Assembly (NCBI GenBank): GCA_017548275.1
Contig: JAFZAH010000040.1
Span: forward strand, 328,320 to 381,489
DNA length: 53,170 bases
Reading direction: 5' to 3'
Source: Prevotella sp.
Lineage (GTDB): Bacteria; Bacteroidota; Bacteroidia; Bacteroidales; Bacteroidaceae
Shown here: positions 3,695-24,713 of the stretch, in pieces
Layout: every line of letters begins with the position of its first letter
How positions within the stretch are numbered: the first letter of the stretch is position 1
The notes under the pieces: model-generated
The model's database searches: none
Told to the model about the DNA's origin: nothing
The model's input: only the letters and a program-made list of their open reading frames with translations
Translations under genes and position numbers: made by a program

Positions 3695-4963
3695 TTATCC
3701 GAAGTTGTCGAACATGATGCTTTCAGGCTCAACACCCAGGGAGTCGAGCATGCCCTGAACGGCCTTTGACATGGGGCCGGGACCGCACATGTAGTACTCG
3801 ATGTCTTCGGGAGCCTCATGGTCTTTGAGATAGGTGTCATACATCACCTGATGCACAAAGCCTGCGGTGTATTTCACACCAGCCTCGTCGGCTGCGGGAT
3901 CGGGACGGTCCAAAGCGAGATGGAAGTGGAAGTTGGGGAACTCCTTCTCCAACTCGAGGAAATCCTCTACGAAGAAAGCCTCGACCAACGCACGAGCGCC
4001 ATAGAAGAAATGCATCTCACGGTCGCGGGTCTTGAGCGTCTTGGTCATATGCATGATTTGCGCACGCAAGGGAGCCATACCGGCACCACCGCCCACCCAG
4101 ATCATCTCTTTCTTGGAGTCGAAGATGGGATGGAAATCACCATAAGGTCCACTCATGATAACTTTGTCGCCCGGTTTACGCGAGAAGATGTATGACGAGG
4201 CAATACCTGTCGGCACATCCTGGAAGCCCACTTCAGGTTTGGGCTTGAACGGAGTCGTTGCGATACGAACCGTCAGTGTGATGCGGTCGCCCTCAGCAGG
4301 ATAGTTGGCCATAGAATAGGCACGGATAGTATCCTCGGGGTTATGCGCTTTCAACGAGAAGATATTGAACTTCTCCCATGACGGCAGATAATCGGGACCG
4401 ATATCGTCTTTGTCGAAATCCTTGTCATAGTCGATGCAGTCGTATGCGGGAATCTTGATTTGCGCATACGAACCGGGGATAAAGTCCATGTGCTCGCCCG
4501 GAGGCAGCGCCACGATAAACTCCTTGATGAAACTCGACACGTTTTTGTTGGAAATGACGGTACACTCCCACTCCTTCACGCCGAGCACACTCTCAGGCAC
4601 TTTGATCTTCAGGTTGCCCTTCACCTTGCACTGGCAACCGAGGCGCCAATGGTCCTTAATTTCCTTGCGGGTGAAATGAGGACGCTCAGAGTCGAGGATT
4701 TCTCCCCCACCCTCCAAGACCTGCACTTTGCACTGTCCGCATGAGGCTTTACCGCCACAAGCAGAAGGCAAGAAGATGCCGTTCTCATTGAGTGTGGTCA
4801 TGAGACTGCTGCCCTGTGCCACGGAGATGGTCTTGTCGCCGTTGATTTCAATATTGACATTGCCGCTGGGCGACAGATACTTCTTCGCCACCAAGAGGAT
4901 GATGACCAAAAGAAGAATCGTCACGAGGAATACCCCTATACTGGATAATATAAACTGTATCAT
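3695..4963 (-). CDS. nqrF: Na+-translocating NADH:quinone reductase subunit F
   Basis: NqrF is the electron entry point of the Na+-pumping NADH dehydrogenase: NADH to FAD to a [2Fe-2S] centre. The 422-residue protein shows one N-terminal membrane helix (about 4-26), then a ferredoxin domain with Cys69, Cys75, Cys78 and Cys110 ('SACGGKASCGQC ... LGCQC'). A ferredoxin-reductase module follows, with the FAD motif 'RAYSMANYP', the NADH-binding 'GGGAGMAPLRAQ' and a terminal 'YYMCGPGPM'. Length matches the family (about 410-425). It is the last gene of nqrABCDEF, 8 bases after nqrE, and is followed by the strong terminator at 3639-3666. Confidence 0.97.
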   Translation of the reverse strand: MIQFILSSIGVFLVTILLLVIILLVAKKYLSPSGNVNIEINGDKTISVAQGSSLMTTLNENGIFLPSACGGKASCGQCKVQVLEGGGEILDSERPHFTRKEIKDHWRLGCQCKVKGNLKIKVPESVLGVKEWECTVISNKNVSSFIKEFIVALPPGEHMDFIPGSYAQIKIPAYDCIDYDKDFDKDDIGPDYLPSWEKFNIFSLKAHNPEDTIRAYSMANYPAEGDRITLTVRIATTPFKPKPEVGFQDVPTGIASSYIFSRKPGDKVIMSGPYGDFHPIFDSKKEMIWVGGGAGMAPLRAQIMHMTKTLKTRDREMHFFYGARALVEAFFVEDFLELEKEFPNFHFHLALDRPDPAADEAGVKYTAGFVHQVMYDTYLKDHEAPEDIEYYMCGPGPMSKAVQGMLDSLGVEPESIMFDNFG

Positions 4964-17592: not shown

Positions 17593-18654
17593 TTATTGAC
17601 GGTTAATCCATTCCACAATCCATTGCCCGACCTCTTTAGTTCCATACTGCGGATAGCCTTCGGCCTGAATCTCGGGTGTCCGCACATAAGCATCCAAACT
17701 CGCGTCGACCGCCTTTCTGACCATCAAGCCCTCTTCCTTGAGGTTGAAATACTCAAGCAGCATGGCAACGGAAAGGATTTGCGCCAAGGGATTGGCAATA
17801 TTCTTGCCGGTAGCCTGCGGCCAAGAGCCATGTACAGGTTCGAAGACGGGAGTGTTCTCGCCCGTCGAAGCCGATGGCAACAAACCCATAGAGCCGGAGA
17901 TACAACTTGCCTCGTCGGTCAGGATGTCACCAAAGGTGTTTTCCGTGACGATGACATCAAAGAATGTGGGTTCGACAATCATCCTCATCGAAGCGTTGTC
18001 AACAAACATATAATCGACGTTGACATCAGGATAAGCCGGTTCCATCTCTTTGGCAATCTGCCTCCACAGACGGCTTGAGGCCAGCACATTGGCCTTATCC
18101 ACGACGGTGAGATGATGTTTACGCATACGTGCATATTCAAACCCCACTTTCAAAATGCGCTCCACTTCCGGACGGGTGTAGTAATTGGTGTCAAATGCCT
18201 TGTCATTGTCCTGATACTTCTCGCCAAAATACATGCCCCCCGTCAGTTCGCGGATGCAGATAAAATCAGCGCCCCGCACCAATTCTTCGCGTAACGGGCT
18301 TTTGTGAATCAGGCAATCAAACGTCTGGATGGGACGAATGTTGGCGAATAAGCCTAATTTTTTGCGCATGGCAAGCAATCCTTGTTCGGGGCGCACTTTC
18401 GCATTGGGGTCATTGTCATATTTCGGGTCGCCTACAGCCGCAAAGAGCACAGCATCCGACTTAAGACAAGTCTGATATGTGTCTTCCGGGAAAGGGTCTC
18501 CACAAAGGCCAATTGCATATGCACCACAAGGAGCCTCCTGATAAGTCACCTCATGTTGATATTTCTTGGCAATGGCATCGAGTACAGCGACACCCTGACG
18601 CATAATCTCCGGACCGATACCGTCGCCAGAGAGAACGGCAATTTTCAATTCCAT
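17593..18654 (-). CDS. leuB: 3-isopropylmalate dehydrogenase
   Basis: 353 residues, the family's usual length. It oxidatively decarboxylates 3-isopropylmalate with NAD+ to 2-ketoisocaproate, the third step of leucine synthesis. Visible signatures are '[11 protein letters not shown]' at the N-terminus, '[12 protein letters not shown]', '[14 protein letters not shown]' and '[27 protein letters not shown]' (substrate/Mg2+ Asp residues), then '[21 protein letters not shown]'. It lies 2 bases after the leuA-like paralogue. Confidence 0.97.
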
Positions 18655-18656
18655 AG

Positions 18657-20213
18657 TTATTGATTGTAAGAGTTATTGGCAATTTGTTGTTCTTCGAACA
18701 CATTGAGCATTTTCATCGTGGCTTTAATGGCCGCCTCAGTCTGGTCGGCATCGAGCGCCCTTGTGCGGATGATTTTATCACCGTTCCTCCACGTTATAAC
18801 CGTCTGCACCAACGCATCAGTCCTTCCTCCAGGAGGTATAGAGACGGAGTAATTGTCGAGAATGGGGAATGTGCAGTCCAGATTCTTTCTGTAAATCTTC
18901 CTCAACGCTTTAACGAACGCGTCATACTGACCATCGCCGGTAGAATCGGCCTCATAGCGTTGACCGTTGATTTCCACTTTCACATTGGCCAGCGGTTTCA
19001 GTCCGTATGCCGAACTGACCAGGTAACTGATGAGTTTGACGCGTTCTGCCGGTACAGCGTGTTTCAACACGTCGCTGATGATGAACGGCAAATCATCCTG
19101 CGTGACAATCTCTTTCCTGTCGCCAAGTTCCGTAATCCGTTGCGCCACTTTCTTGCTCTGTTCGGGAGTGAGAACCACGCCCAGTTCTTTCAAGTTTCTT
19201 TCTATATTGGCCTTTCCGCTGTTTTTTCCAAGCGCATATTCGCGTTTTCGTCCGAAGCGTTCAGGCACGAGTTCATTGCAATAAAGATTCGCCTTGTTGT
19301 CACCGTCAGCATGAATGCCTGCCACTTGCGTGAATACATTCTCGCCGACGATGGGCGTATTGGGCGAAACGGGAATGCCGCTATATCCCTCCACAAGACG
19401 ACTGATGGCATTGAGTTGGTCCTCTCGTATATTCGTCTTGGCATGAAACAGGTCTTTCATGATGACCTGCACACTGGCGAGAGGAGCATTGCCACAACGC
19501 TCACCCAATCCGTTTACCGTGACATGCAATCCTTTCGCGCCGCTCAATACAGCCGCCAACGAATTGGACACCGCCAAATCGTAATCATTATGACCGTGGA
19601 AATCGAAGTGCACATCAGGATAGCGTTTCAGCATCTTCCGGAAATACTCTATCACCTGCAGCGGATTCATGATACCCAACGTGTCGGGCAGCATAAAACG
19701 TTTCACGGGCGACTGTGTCAAGGCATCCATCAACTGATAGACATAATCCGGAGAGTCCTTCATGCCATTGCTCCAGTCTTCAAGATAAACATTCACATCC
19801 ACGCCTTGCTCACATGCGTAACTGATGGTTTCGAGGACATCGGCAATATGCTCCTCAGGCGATTTCTGCAACTGCTGCGTACAATGTCTTAATGAGCCTT
19901 TCGTGAGCAGGTTGATGTTTTTGCATCCCTTCTCGATAATCCAGTCAACCGATTTCTTACCATCCACGAAACCTAGGACCTCTACCTTGCCCAGCGCATC
20001 GATTTTTCGAGCATAACGGCAAATCATCTTCACGGCATCTCCCTCTCCCTCAGAAACACATGCCGACGCCACCTCGATTCTGTCAATATTGACATCTTCG
20101 AGCAACATACGGGCAATCATGAGTTTCTCATGGGGCAGGAACGACACGCCGCTGGTCTGTTCTCCGTCGCGCAGCGTACAGTCCATGATTTCCACATAGG
20201 GTTTCTCTATCAT
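18657..20213 (-). CDS. 2-isopropylmalate synthase-family paralogue (possible citramalate synthase)
   Basis: 518 residues. The HMGL-like catalytic barrel opens with '[18 protein letters not shown]' and has the metal-binding '[17 protein letters not shown]' and '[13 protein letters not shown]'. A LeuA allosteric (dimer) domain follows from about residue 390 ('[32 protein letters not shown]'). It is clearly distinct from the LeuA encoded at the head of the same operon. Condensation of acetyl-CoA with pyruvate (citramalate, for isoleucine) is the best alternative substrate, as LeuC/LeuD/LeuB can process citramalate; homocitrate-type chemistry is another option. The ATG at 20213 overlaps the leuD stop as ATGA, so I prefer it to the ATG at 20231. 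Confidence 0.85.
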
Positions 20214-20800
20214 TTGTTGCGTCGCTCCCATTCTATAATCTTATCATGGTTTTGAACCAAATAATCAATATCGTCCAGTCCAGCCATGAGACAATGTTTC
20301 TTGTATGCGTTGATCTCAAAGTGTTCGGCCTCGCCAGTATCAAGATTGGTTACCTTCTGTTGCGGCAAATCCACTTTCACCTCACATGCCGGATTTTTCT
20401 CAATCGACGCGAAAAGATTGCCGAGGAAAGATTCGCTGACCATGACGGGCAGGACAAAATTGTTCAACTCGTTGTTTCTATGTATATCAGCGAAGAAAGA
20501 ACTGATGACCACCCTGAATCCGTAACCAGCAATGGCCCAAGCGGCATGTTCGCGCGAAGAGCCAGAACCGAAGTTTTTACCTGCCACGAGAATACATCCG
20601 CCATACTGACGATTATTTAAGATAAAATCCTGAACCGGTTTTCCCTCTTCATCATACCTCCAGTCATGGAACAGATGCGCACCAAAGCCTTCCTTGTCAG
20701 TGGCTTTCAGGAAACGAGCGGGGATAATCTGGTCTGTATCGACATTCTCCAACGGCAGGGGAACACACGTGCTGATAATAACGTCAAATTTCTGTTTCAT
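20210..20800 (-). CDS. leuD: 3-isopropylmalate dehydratase small subunit
   Basis: 196 residues, the normal LeuD size. With LeuC it isomerises 2- to 3-isopropylmalate. Motifs: 'LENVDTDQIIPARFLK', 'GGCILVAGKNFGSGSSREHAAWAIAGYGFRVVISSFFADI' and 'FEINAYKKHCLMAGLDDIDYLV'. The ATG at 20800 (MKQKFDVI) is the better start; ATG 20806 (MIMKQK) is two codons upstream. The frame continues upstream to 20965 only because it shadows leuC. It starts 7 bases after the leuC stop. Confidence 0.96.
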   Translation of the reverse strand: MKQKFDVIISTCVPLPLENVDTDQIIPARFLKATDKEGFGAHLFHDWRYDEEGKPVQDFILNNRQYGGCILVAGKNFGSGSSREHAAWAIAGYGFRVVISSFFADIHRNNELNNFVLPVMVSESFLGNLFASIEKNPACEVKVDLPQQKVTNLDTGEAEHFEINAYKKHCLMAGLDDIDYLVQNHDKIIEWERRNK

Positions 20801-20807
20801 AATCATC

Positions 20808-22202
20808 TCATAACAATGTTCTTGGATCAGTGATACAACCCGTAACCGCAGCGGCGGCAGCAACCAGCGGACTTGCCAAGATGGTTCTTGCACCCGGTCC
20901 CTGACGGCCCTCGAAATTACGGTTGCTTGTCGAAACGCAATACTTACCGGCAGGAATCTTGTCATCGTTCATCGCGAGACATGCAGAGCAGCCTGGCTGG
21001 CGAATTTCAAAGCCGGCTTCTTGCAGGATGCGGTCAAGCCCTTCGGCCTCGATTTCCTCTTTCACGCGCCAACTGCCCGGAACGAGCCACGCCGTGATAT
21101 TATCGGCTTTTTTCCGTCCCTTCACGATGGATGCGAAGGCCCTGAAATCTTCAATACGTCCGTTGGTACATGCTCCTAAGAAAACATAATCGACGGGATG
21201 TCCGACGAGTGTTTCCCCCGCATTGAAACCCATATAATTGAGTGATTTGAGGAAAGCGGCCTGTCCTGATGGTTGGATTGTCTCCACGAGCGGTATCGAG
21301 TCGTTGATGCCCATACCCATGCCAGGATTTGTGCCATAAGTAATACGGGGTTCTATTTCATCGGCATCGAACACCAATTCCTTGTCAAAAACGGCATCAT
21401 CATCGCTACGCAAGAGCGACCATTGTTTTACCGCCTTATCCCATTCCTCACCTTTCGGTGCGAACTCGCGATTTTTCAAATAAGCGAAAGTGGTTTCGTC
21501 GGGAGCGATAAAGCCACCTCTCGCACCCATCTCAATAGAGAGGTTACAAAGAGTGAGTCTGCCCTCCATTGACATGGCGTTGATCACATCGCCCGCATAT
21601 TCAACGAAATAACCCGTCGCCCCGGAAGTGGACAGCCTGGTCATGAGAAAAAGTGCCACATCTTTTGGTGTCACGCCTTTACCCAATTGCCCGTTGATGG
21701 TGATGCGCATCGATTTCGGTTTCTGTTGTAAGATACATTGTGAAGCCATCACCATCTCCACTTCAGACGTACCGATACCGAAAGCCACGGCTCCTACTGC
21801 GCCATGCGTCGATGTGTGAGAATCGCCGCAAACGATGGTCATGCCGGGCAGGGAAAGGCCTTTTTCCGGTCCTACCACATGAATGATGCCATTGTCTTTC
21901 GACATCATGCCATAATGCGTCAGTCCGAAGTCACGGCAATTGTCTGCCAAGGTTTGCACCTGTTTGCGCGACACAGGGTCGACGATTTCCTTATCCTGGT
22001 CGTGAGTGGGTGTGTTGTGGTCAGGCATACAGAAAATCTGCTTCGGACGGAAACATTTCAGTCCCCGCTGTCGCAACCCGTCAAAGGCTTGCGGCGATGT
22101 CACCTCATGGCAATACAGGCGGTCGATATATAATTGCACAGGACCGTCTTCGATGGCCTGAACCACATGCCTGTCCCAAATTTTATCAAAGAGTGTATTC
22201 AT
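20808..22202 (-). CDS. leuC: 3-isopropylmalate dehydratase large subunit
   Basis: 464 residues, matching bacterial LeuC. The [4Fe-4S] cluster cysteines are in '[14 protein letters not shown]' and '[14 protein letters not shown]'. Other signatures are '[13 protein letters not shown]', '[27 protein letters not shown]' and '[12 protein letters not shown]'. It follows leuA by 11 bases in the leucine operon. Confidence 0.97.
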
Positions 22203-22213
22203 GCGATTCTATG

Positions 22214-23713
22214 TTATACCTTAAATTTATTGATACAGTCGATATAAGCCTCAACGGATGCCGTCACGATGTCAGTGTTGGCACCGAATCCGTAATAGAG
22301 GTTATTATTATACTCCACCTGCATGTGGACCTTACCCACATCGTCCGAACCTTTGGAAATGGCCTGAATGGTAAACTCCTTGAGTGTCATGGTCTTCATG
22401 ATGATTTTCTTGAGCGCCTTGATAGCAGCGTCAACAGGTCCGTTTCCAGAAGACGCCGCCTCGAATTTCTGTCCGCTGATATCCAATCCGATGGACGCCA
22501 CGCTTCGTACGCCCTTGCCAGTGGTCACTTGGAGGAAATCAAGTTTCACAGCGTGCGACTCAGCCGTGTCGGCACCAGCCAGCATAAGTATGTCATCGTT
22601 GGTCACCTCTTTCTTCTGGTCAGCCAACCTCAAGAATTTCTGATAGATTTTATCCACTTTCTCCTCGCTTTTCACATTCACGCCGAGCGCACTGAGACGA
22701 TATTTGATAGCAGCCCTGCCCGACCGTGCTGTCAAAACGATAGAATTGTCCTCCAACCCGACATCTTTCGGGTTGATAATCTCATAAGTGGAGGCATTTT
22801 TCAACACGCCATCCTGATGAATGCCGCTGGAGTGAGCAAACGCGTTTCTACCGACGATGGCCTTATTGGGCTGAACGGGCATGTTCATCAACCCCGACAC
22901 CATGCGGCTGACAGGATATATCTTGGTGGTATTGATATTGGTATCGATGTCCAGACTCTTATGACATTTGAGTATCATCGCTATCTCTTCCAAAGACGTA
23001 TTTCCGGCCCGTTCTCCAATGCCATTGACAGTCACTTCCACCTGTCGCGCACCGTTGACGATGCCGCTAAGGGTATTCGCGGTGGCCATGCCCAAGTCGT
23101 TGTGACAATGTGTGGAGATGATGGCCCGGTCGATTCCGTCAACATGCTCCATCAGGTATTTGATTTTCTCGCCATATTCCATCGGCAGGCAATAGCCTGT
23201 GGTATCGGGGATGTTGACCACGGTGGCACCAGCCTTGATGACCGCCTCGACCACGCGGGCAAGGTATTCGTTGTCGGTTCTGCCGGCATCTTCAGCATAG
23301 AACTCCACATCCTCAACGAATTTTTTCGCATATTTCACGGCTGCGACAGCATGTTCGATGATTTCCTCACGCGTAGAATTGAACTTGTACTTAATGTGCG
23401 CGTCGCTGGTGCCGATACCCGTATGAATGCGTTTATACTTGGCATATTTCAATGCCTCGACCGCCACGTCAATATCTTTCTCCACGGCTCTTGTCAGTGC
23501 GCAAATCGTGGGCCATGTCACGGCTTTCGATATTTCCACGACCGAATTGAAGTCGCCGGGACTTGAAACGGGGAATCCTGCTTCAATCACATCCACGCCC
23601 ATTAGTTCCAGACTTTTTGCCACCTCGATTTTTTCTACTGTGTTGAGTTGACAACCTGGCACCTGCTCACCGTCGCGCAACGTGGTGTCGAAAATAAACA
23701 ATCTTTCACTCAT
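22214..23713 (-). CDS. leuA: 2-isopropylmalate synthase
   Basis: 499 residues; the first committed enzyme of leucine synthesis (acetyl-CoA plus 2-ketoisovalerate). Signatures are '[17 protein letters not shown]', '[40 protein letters not shown]' (metal-binding HxH) and the regulatory C-terminal domain '[49 protein letters not shown]', which normally confers feedback inhibition by leucine. First structural gene of the operon, directly preceded by the attenuator terminator. Confidence 0.97.
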
Positions 23714-23730
23714 AATACTACAAATAAAAT

Positions 23731-23762
23731 AGACCTTTCACACATGGAAGTGAGAAAGGTCT
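23731..23762 (-). terminator. Attenuator terminator of the leucine operon
   Basis: On the minus strand a 9-base stem AGACCTTTC/GAAAGGTCT plus a UCA/UGU extension is followed by the T-rich run ATTTTATTTG. It stands 17 bases upstream of the leuA ATG and downstream of the leader peptide. Termination here would keep RNA polymerase from reading leuA. Confidence 0.85.
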
Positions 23763-23802
23763 GTACATAAAACGAAAACTTTACACATTACCTGTCACTT
23801 CC
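23746..23802 (-). promoter_or_regulatory. Antiterminator of the leucine operon leader
   Basis: In the transcript, GGAAGUGACAGGU (complement of 23790-23802), overlapping the leader-peptide stop codon, can pair with ACCUUUCUCACUUCC (complement of 23746-23760). That is 8 continuous pairs, a small internal loop, then 4 more. The second segment contains the 5' arm and loop of the terminator, so the two structures exclude each other. A ribosome at the leader stop codon would cover the first segment and favour termination; a ribosome stalled at leader Leu codons would leave it free. Confidence 0.8.
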
Positions 23803-23860
23803 GGCTGTCATCTTGCAGTCGAATATCAAGAGCCAAAAGAGTCAGAATAATGGTGTTCAT
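23795..23860 (-). CDS. Leucine/isoleucine-rich leader peptide of the leu operon
   Basis: A 21-codon open frame starting at ATG 23860 and ending in TGA 23797-23795. It encodes five leucines (codons 6, 8, 9, 11, 15) and three isoleucines (4, 5, 13): MNTIILTLLALDIRL followed by six hydrophilic residues. It begins about 19 bases after the predicted transcription start and ends inside the antiterminator arm. The layout is that of a classical ribosome-mediated attenuator: stalling at Leu codons for lack of charged tRNA-Leu permits read-through into leuA. The isoleucine content suggests possible response to Ile as well, which fits the second synthase gene in the operon. Confidence 0.82.
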   Translation of the reverse strand: MNTIILTLLALDIRLQDDSRK

Positions 23861-23885
23861 TAATACCTTGTTTTGAAATCGGTTG

Positions 23886-23917
23886 CAAATTTAAAGCAAA
23901 AACATCAAACTAACAAA
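23886..23917 (-). promoter_or_regulatory. Promoter of the leucine operon
   Basis: Read on the minus strand: TTTG (23914-23917), a 20-base spacer, TAAATTTG (23886-23893). Transcription should start near 23879, giving a leader of about 165 bases to leuA that contains the leader peptide and attenuator. Confidence 0.78.
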
Positions 23918-23979: not shown

Positions 23980-24657
23980 TTATTCGTCTGCTTTTAACAC
24001 TTTTAATACCTGTTGAGCAATGGCTTTCATGCCTTTTTGCGACGGATGGCCGTTTTGTTTGTCTATATCGGTAAGCGTGATGCACTTCACGCCATAATGT
24101 CCGCAAATGGTCTTACACGACTCGGTGATGTCGGAGCGCAGTTCGGAGTTGAGAATGAAATAGATTCTGACGTTGATATAACGGCGTGTCATATGCTCCA
24201 ACATATATGCCATGGCTGGACGGAATGTGAAGAAATCGGATTTCTTCAGGTTGTCATATTGGTATTCACCTACGGGTTCGCCAGCCCAACTGTCATTGGT
24301 AGCACCGAAAATGAGGATAATGTCGGGATTGCCCAGGTCGTCCATACGGGTGATAAACGAACGCGCGCTGTAGTCATTGCCGTCATAGCCTCGATATCCG
24401 ATGGTGGAACCGCTATAAGAATTGTTCACGCAGAACTTGTAACCGCCCTCTTTGATGACCTGCCACCACCATGTGTCAGTCACATCGTTGACATCAGTTT
24501 TATTGCCATTCTCCTCGTAATACCACATCTCATTGGTTGCAGGGGTGACATATCCCTCAAATGTAGAATACGAATCACCCAAAATCGACACCGACTGTGC
24601 CATGGCGGCAACAGTCAGCATCGTAGCGACCAAGCAGCCCAAAAATCGTTTTTTCAT
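23980..24657 (-). CDS. Secreted SGNH/GDSL-type hydrolase
   Basis: 225 residues with a signal peptide (MKKRFLGCLVATMLTVAAMA, cleavage before QS). SGNH blocks are visible: block I 'ILGDSYSTFEG' (nucleophile Ser), block III 'FGATNDSW' (G-x-N-D oxyanion residues) and a C-terminal 'NGHPSQKG' supplying the catalytic His. The family comprises esterases and carbohydrate deacetylases; the substrate is not evident. I chose ATG 24657 over 24696 because only the former places the signal peptide at the N-terminus and lies downstream of the predicted promoter. It is a single-gene unit. Confidence 0.88.
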   Translation of the reverse strand: MKKRFLGCLVATMLTVAAMAQSVSILGDSYSTFEGYVTPATNEMWYYEENGNKTDVNDVTDTWWWQVIKEGGYKFCVNNSYSGSTIGYRGYDGNDYSARSFITRMDDLGNPDIILIFGATNDSWAGEPVGEYQYDNLKKSDFFTFRPAMAYMLEHMTRRYINVRIYFILNSELRSDITESCKTICGHYGVKCITLTDIDKQNGHPSQKGMKAIAQQVLKVLKADE

Positions 24658-24682
24658 ACTTTTGAAATCTATTATGACATCG

Positions 24683-24713
24683 CAAAAGTACGGCATTTAA
24701 GCGAGATAACAAA
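24683..24713 (-). promoter_or_regulatory. Promoter of the SGNH hydrolase gene
   Basis: On the minus strand TTTG (24710-24713), a 19-base spacer, TACTTTTG (24683-24690) followed by CG. It fits the Bacteroidota consensus exactly and lies 26 bases before the chosen ATG. Confidence 0.78.

Follow-up and report, generated by a model that had tools for sequence, protein, structure and literature searches.

The control of the leuA-leuC-leuD-cimA-leuB operon in this Prevotella genome is best explained by ribosome-mediated transcription attenuation, a reading to which a probability of about 0.93 is given. The leader that precedes leuA is predicted to act as a switch that would respond to charged tRNA-Leu and tRNA-Ile. 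Attenuation of this type is a classical mechanism, to which the present analysis adds its spread through an order, a full anatomy in which stems covary, and a link of the control codons of the leader with the gene content of the operon. The result is a well-supported attenuator that recurs in many family-level groups within a single order, in a phylum where the control of amino-acid synthesis has been little described. It seems moderately probable that the leu-operon attenuators of the Bacteroidales form a common family, so far undescribed, in which the control codons change in evolution along with operon gene content, such that leaders carry Leu and Ile codons ahead of leu genes plus cimA, mostly Leu codons where there is no service to isoleucine, and Ile codons alone before cimA.

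Anatomy of the leader and the proposed switch

The window, the whole stretch of 53,170 nucleotides that was analysed, carries the element on its minus strand, in the order 5' to 3' promoter, leader frame, terminator, T-tract and the leuA ATG at 23713 (Table 1). A preliminary description, made from the sequence alone, had named a promoter, a 21-residue frame with five Leu and three Ile codons, a T-run and leuA, and all of these are there. The leader peptide read from the sequence is MNTIILTLLALDIRLQDDSRK. The antiterminator of GGAAGTGAcAGGT and ACCTttcTCACTTCC has 8+4 = 12 possible pairs with a small internal loop and shares sequence with the terminator, as had been stated, and its first arm does overlap the stop codon of the peptide. 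A protector stem, formed between leader codons and the segment that follows the arm, was absent from that description.

Table 1. Leader elements and genes of the leu operon in the window
Feature	Position	Strand	Basis and details
Putative promoter, Bacteroidetes-type	23886..23917	-	Sequence; TTTG at 23917-23914, 20 nt, then TAAATTTG at 23893-23886
Leader reading frame, 21 codons and TGA	23795..23860	-	Sequence; ATG at 23860, TGA at 23797-23795
Protector hairpin	23783..23856	-	Minimum-energy fold; leader codons 23856-23843 with 23794-23783
Antiterminator 5' arm, GGAAGTGAcAGGT	23790..23802	-	Sequence; contains the leader stop codon
Shared arm, ACCTttcTCACTTCC	23746..23760	-	Sequence; antiterminator 3' side and terminator 5' side
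Predicted intrinsic terminator hairpin	23731..23762	-	Fold
T-rich tract, ATTTTATTTG	23721..23730	-	Sequence
leuA, 2-isopropylmalate synthase	22214..23713	-	NF002086, 729 bits (cut-off 532)
leuC, 3-isopropylmalate dehydratase large subunit	20808..22202	-	NF004016, 717 bits (cut-off 510)
leuD, 3-isopropylmalate dehydratase small subunit	20210..20800	-	NF002458, 234 bits (cut-off 167)
CimA-like synthase, putative citramalate synthase (isoleucine route)	18657..20231	-	NF042433, 636 bits (cut-off 950)
leuB, 3-isopropylmalate dehydrogenase	17593..18654	-	TIGR00169, 425 bits (cut-off 353)

In the proposed mechanism, RNA polymerase would start at the promoter and a ribosome would begin the 21-codon leader. 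Under a shortage of leucine or isoleucine, the ribosome would stall at a control codon, leaving the first arm free to pair with the shared arm; the terminator would then not form and the operon would be read. When leucine and isoleucine are both plentiful, the ribosome would instead reach the stop codon inside the first arm and cover it, allowing the terminator to form and transcription to end before leuA. In the absence of translation, the protector stem formed by the leader codons would compete with the antiterminator.

The 172-nt leader folds with a z-score of -2.33 relative to dinucleotide shuffles, 2 of 200 of which fold as well, and the fold contains the terminator together with a second hairpin, that of the leader codons with the segment after the arm. 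Taken alone, the antiterminator of the window is only suggestive (p 0.066 against 60 shuffles). Its reality is settled by comparison, since 57 of 85 leaders give p <= 0.05 when each is set against 60 shuffles; of these, 43 reach 1/61, the lowest value attainable.

The operon runs leuA, leuC, leuD, CimA-like synthase, leuB. The start of leuD was placed at an inner ATG of the listed open reading frame 20210-20965, NF002458 covering residues 58-250 of the long frame. The fourth gene had been noted as an extra synthase. It is named CimA-like here because NF042433, (R)-citramalate synthase CimA, is its best NCBIfam model; the identification is qualified by scores below the cut-offs of both CimA models (636 against 950 bits for NF042433, 174 against 450 for TIGR00977). 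Four PALP-family enzymes were found in the window genome, which is 87% complete: by model cysteine synthase, tryptophan synthase beta and a TrpB-like protein, and by our own reading threonine synthase. No threonine dehydratase is among these four, which is consistent with a role of the CimA-like enzyme in isoleucine synthesis, and the association of leader codons with operon content provides a regulatory argument for the same role.

Upstream of the promoter and on the same strand lies a gene (23980-24696) with a GDSYS motif that, by eye, resembles those of SGNH/GDSL hydrolases; no NCBIfam model matched it.

Distribution, stems and ribosome geometry

A search with LeuA among 149 relatives matched 91 genomes, and 90 upstream regions were read in the orientation of leuA. 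An automatic test required a terminator, an arm upstream that is complementary to it, and a frame starting with ATG and containing five or more Leu and Ile codons. It was passed by 63 of the 90 regions, in which the Leu/Ile-rich frame sits at the same place: 49 of the 63 regions from the genus, and 14 of the 27 from the rest of the order. By eye, the test had one false pass (L022) and two misses (L034 and L039), the latter because the terminator is farther from leuA. Further leaders were found in 24 of 29 order-level matches, five of these 29 repeating genomes already counted, in 24 of 40 loci of another set, and in 5 of 15 family-level loci (L271-L285), with leuA not recognised in three more (L286-L288). 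A leader was also seen in Segatella copri iA622 (L364). At E <= 0.01, a covariance model, R1, built from 48 genus leaders, has matches in 80 of 150 genomes of the genus, a figure that includes what it can find of its own 48 training leaders. Outside the order, matches were obtained in 92 genomes and none of the 29 leuA loci examined has a leader. In relatives, both the Leu/Ile codons and the stems are thus conserved, the outcome on which the preliminary description had staked its claim.

In 81 of 85 leaders, a TAnnTTTG box lies no more than 75 nt upstream of the start codon, compared with 4.5% in mononucleotide shuffles. At least 11 leuA regions of the genus are without such a leader (L017, L023, L028, L029, L036, L040, L045, L054, L058, L062 and L072). 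By eye, nine of these 11 have a TAnnTTTG box shortly before leuA, an arrangement that would fit loss of the attenuator and a shift of the promoter towards the gene. At L012 (G043:C61), a terminator-like remnant with CACTTCC stands before leuA, and the leader frame was not found. At L093, one of the loci outside the order, the sequence before leuA resembles, by eye, the end of a leuB gene, such that an attenuator may there stand at the head of a larger operon. In the window genome itself, ilvD (L092, G000:C26) has no recognisable attenuator and none was seen at trpB.

The stems were assessed on an alignment of 48 genus sequences (A1). Within the genus, terminator and protector covary more clearly than the antiterminator. 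For the terminator, covariation is 0.293, against at most 0.230 when the stem is slid, with two-sided changes in 8 of 13 pairs. For the protector region, tested as two helices picked on the same alignment, the values are 0.347 against at most 0.144, with two-sided changes in 31 cells (22 at most when slid). In the antiterminator, 92.1% of cells are paired, against at most 54.7% when slid, yet its covariation is thin (0.147 against a shuffled mean of 0.135, with 50 of 500 shuffles as high, and five pairs with two-sided changes against 3-6 in slid versions), because the stem is nearly invariant in the genus. Between groups and families, however, its arms change together, as in GGAAGTGA/TCACTTCC, GAGAGAAAGG/CCTTTCTCTC and CTGAGAATGGT/GCCATTCTCAG. 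Among 28 diverse representatives, the pairing of a leader with its own terminator has a median of 20.25 against 16 with foreign ones (Wilcoxon p 6e-6), the own terminator ranking first for only 4 of the 28.

The control codons are positioned such that a ribosome stalled on them would leave the antiterminator arm free. The last Leu or Ile codon starts a median of 14 nt before the arm (interquartile range 13-16, range 4-23; 85 leaders), which is close to the distance between the ribosomal A site and its leading edge. When nascent RNA was folded with a ribosome footprint, the antiterminator formed with a mean probability, over the 85 leaders, of 0.83 when the ribosome sat on Leu/Ile codons, 0.46 when there was no ribosome and 0.001 when it had reached the stop; the last value follows in part from the requirement that frames end near the arm. 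The value at Leu/Ile positions exceeds that at the stop in 85 of 85 leaders and the value without a ribosome in 73 of 85. The protector of the window looks weak, since the modelled antiterminator probability there is 0.96 even with no ribosome. The window leader is also of a minority type: by hand count, 13 of 48 genus leaders end at a TGA within the arm, and in most others the frame continues to a later stop. Termination at either site would be expected to leave the arm covered by the ribosome.

Core codons, those before the arm beyond the ribosome edge, are 22.8% Leu, 28.7% Ile and 0.7% Val. CTA makes up 106 of 342 Leu control codons, whereas the genes of the window's operon use it for 2 of 156 Leu residues; ATT makes up 287 of 347 Ile control codons, against 53 of 143. 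A stretch of 15 residues with at least eight Leu and Ile occurs in 55 of 85 leaders (eight in that of the window), as against 5 of 2648 stretches of long open reading frames in the window, a contrast inflated by the choice of leader frames for high Leu and Ile content.

Isoleucine codons and operon content

The preliminary description took the Ile codons to suggest dual sensing, in keeping with the extra synthase. Comparison of the positions of leuA and the CimA-like gene, with operons read out where needed, reveals an association between Ile share and operon content. In 100 leaders of operons with both leuA and cimA, Ile makes up on average 53% of Leu and Ile codons, and a single leader (1/100) has no more than one Ile. 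Where the leuA operon is without cimA, the share over nine leaders is 28%, and four of the nine have no more than one Ile. Ile content differs by operon type (Mann-Whitney p 6e-4, Fisher p 1e-4) in statistics that ignore kinship, the leaders without cimA stemming from about five lineages. A call of 'no cimA' is weak in the large searches, where few candidates were scored per genome; for the nine cases used, operons were read out or placed by coordinates. The comparison excludes G834, L066, L067 and L090 (the last three for contig ends or missing context), the false leader L022, and L031 and L053 (76 of 78 counted), and includes as 24 added leaders the passing loci of the set of 40, with the doubtful-looking L295, L298 and L310 kept. 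Two loci, L068 and that of G047, both suggested the idea and are counted in its support.

Individual leaders illustrate the trend. That of G114 is MNTTLLSLSLTSGLTLSK, in an operon leuA-leuC-leuD-leuB where no cimA was found, and that of G447 is MQSNYLLPFLLWTLLLNNLREKHGCL, where leuA stands alone. In G047, the leuA operon is without cimA and, by eye, without a leader; an attenuator stands before a separate CimA-like gene (L152; G047:C122, about 4648-4798 of the contig), which scores 623 bits to NF042433. Its leader, MMQSTSQHIIISIIIRQPIVAGSV, has seven Ile and no Leu, with Gln at a position that is a Leu codon in all 48 genus leaders. Among the further loci examined, no other cimA or leuCD operon head with its own leader was found, so the case of a cimA-only leader is that of one genome.

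Two leaders, those of G093 (five Ile) and G415 (four Ile), run counter to the simplest form of dual sensing, as there is no cimA in their operons. Both operons hold leuC and leuD, with cimA elsewhere in the genome, and their enzymes may still serve isoleucine; this point, and the split by presence of leuCD that it implies, were made after the fact. In the same family-level group, where leuA is alone, the leaders have one Ile (G498) and three Ile (G562). In G144, leuC and leuD are present and cimA is elsewhere, yet the leader has one Ile only.

These exceptions bear on the view that leucine alone is sensed, the Ile codons being kept for RNA structure, as ATT repeats of the protector, or by descent. 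It would account for G093 and G415 and for the preponderance of ATT near the protector helices. Nevertheless, the stems still work in leaders with no or one Ile (G114, G447, G144 and G498), the sole leader before cimA alone has Ile and no Leu, and the Ile share varies with operon content, if without correction for kinship. Leucine-only sensing is for these reasons unlikely. Dual sensing of leucine and isoleucine, for which the codon association provides comparative support, is likely, although less certain than attenuation itself. The link between codons and operon content makes it directly testable and, if true, the leader sequence alone would report the product of an enzyme of the isopropylmalate/citramalate synthase family.

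In G834, no leuD, leuB or cimA is labelled in 8.8 kb; an integrase-like gene, recognised by eye, directly follows leuC (L251, G834:C54), and the leader remains, with six Ile and two Leu.

Relation to known systems

The nearest parallel is the enterobacterial leuL leader (Leu_leader, RF00512), a Leu-rich leader with rare CUA codons and a protector/antiterminator/terminator logic ahead of the leu operon. All of these features are also found here. Unlike in leuL, Ile is as frequent as Leu, a CimA-like gene is in the operon, translation of the leader ends within the antiterminator arm or shortly beyond it, and there is no Rfam match. The leaders of enterobacterial ilvGMEDA and ilvBN show that one leader can sense more than one branched-chain amino acid, as is proposed here; in contrast to them, the present leaders are practically without Val in their control region and precede leu/cimA genes rather than ilv genes.

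Candidate attenuators in Bacteroidetes/Chlorobi were reportedly named by Vitreschak et al. in 2004. In Flavobacterium psychrophilum, of the same phylum, 'strong clues' have been reported for leader-peptide attenuation before amino-acid biosynthesis operons, with no leu leader in the part of the report available (PMC9723704), and in Bacteroides thetaiotaomicron short open reading frames reminiscent of leader peptides have been noted (PMC7366714). The accessible portions of these two papers thus agree with the earlier remark that examples in the phylum are few, and neither gives a leu example. By title, no description of the leu leader of this order was found in the literature searched, which took in few subscription journals and no supplements. 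The Bacteroid-trp motif (RF01692) is another candidate cis-regulatory RNA of the Bacteroidetes, linked to tryptophan by its name (PMC2864571), but it is not matched by the leu leader.

A terminator with an alternative stem before a biosynthesis operon is equally common to regulatory RNAs that are uncoupled from translation, such as a T-box or riboswitch, and to antiterminators bound by protein, in which case the frame would be incidental. This is very improbable: at gathering scores, Rfam, including RF00512, T-box and riboswitch models, gave no match in the window or in seven loci, the distance between control codon and arm is fixed, and codon identity tracks operon content. Matches up to E 10 numbered four, none to a leader or T-box family. 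A sub-threshold match to IR_84 (26.6 bits, threshold 51), which lies on the other strand, was taken as chance.

That the frame encodes a functional small hydrophobic (membrane) peptide ahead of an ordinary terminator is highly improbable. Leu/Ile-rich peptides of about 20-30 residues do resemble membrane peptides, but Val at 0.7% of core residues, against 52% for Leu plus Ile, is not what hydrophobicity alone would lead one to expect. Moreover, relatives differ in the frame across the arm while the RNA is constant, and the second arm, able to pair with the terminator, is retained.

As Rfam has no match to them, attenuators of this kind could be annotated with the help of alignment A1 and covariance model R1. 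Genome G336 has, in addition to its leader upstream of leuA on C193, a second and truncated match to the model where contig C215 ends (L153).
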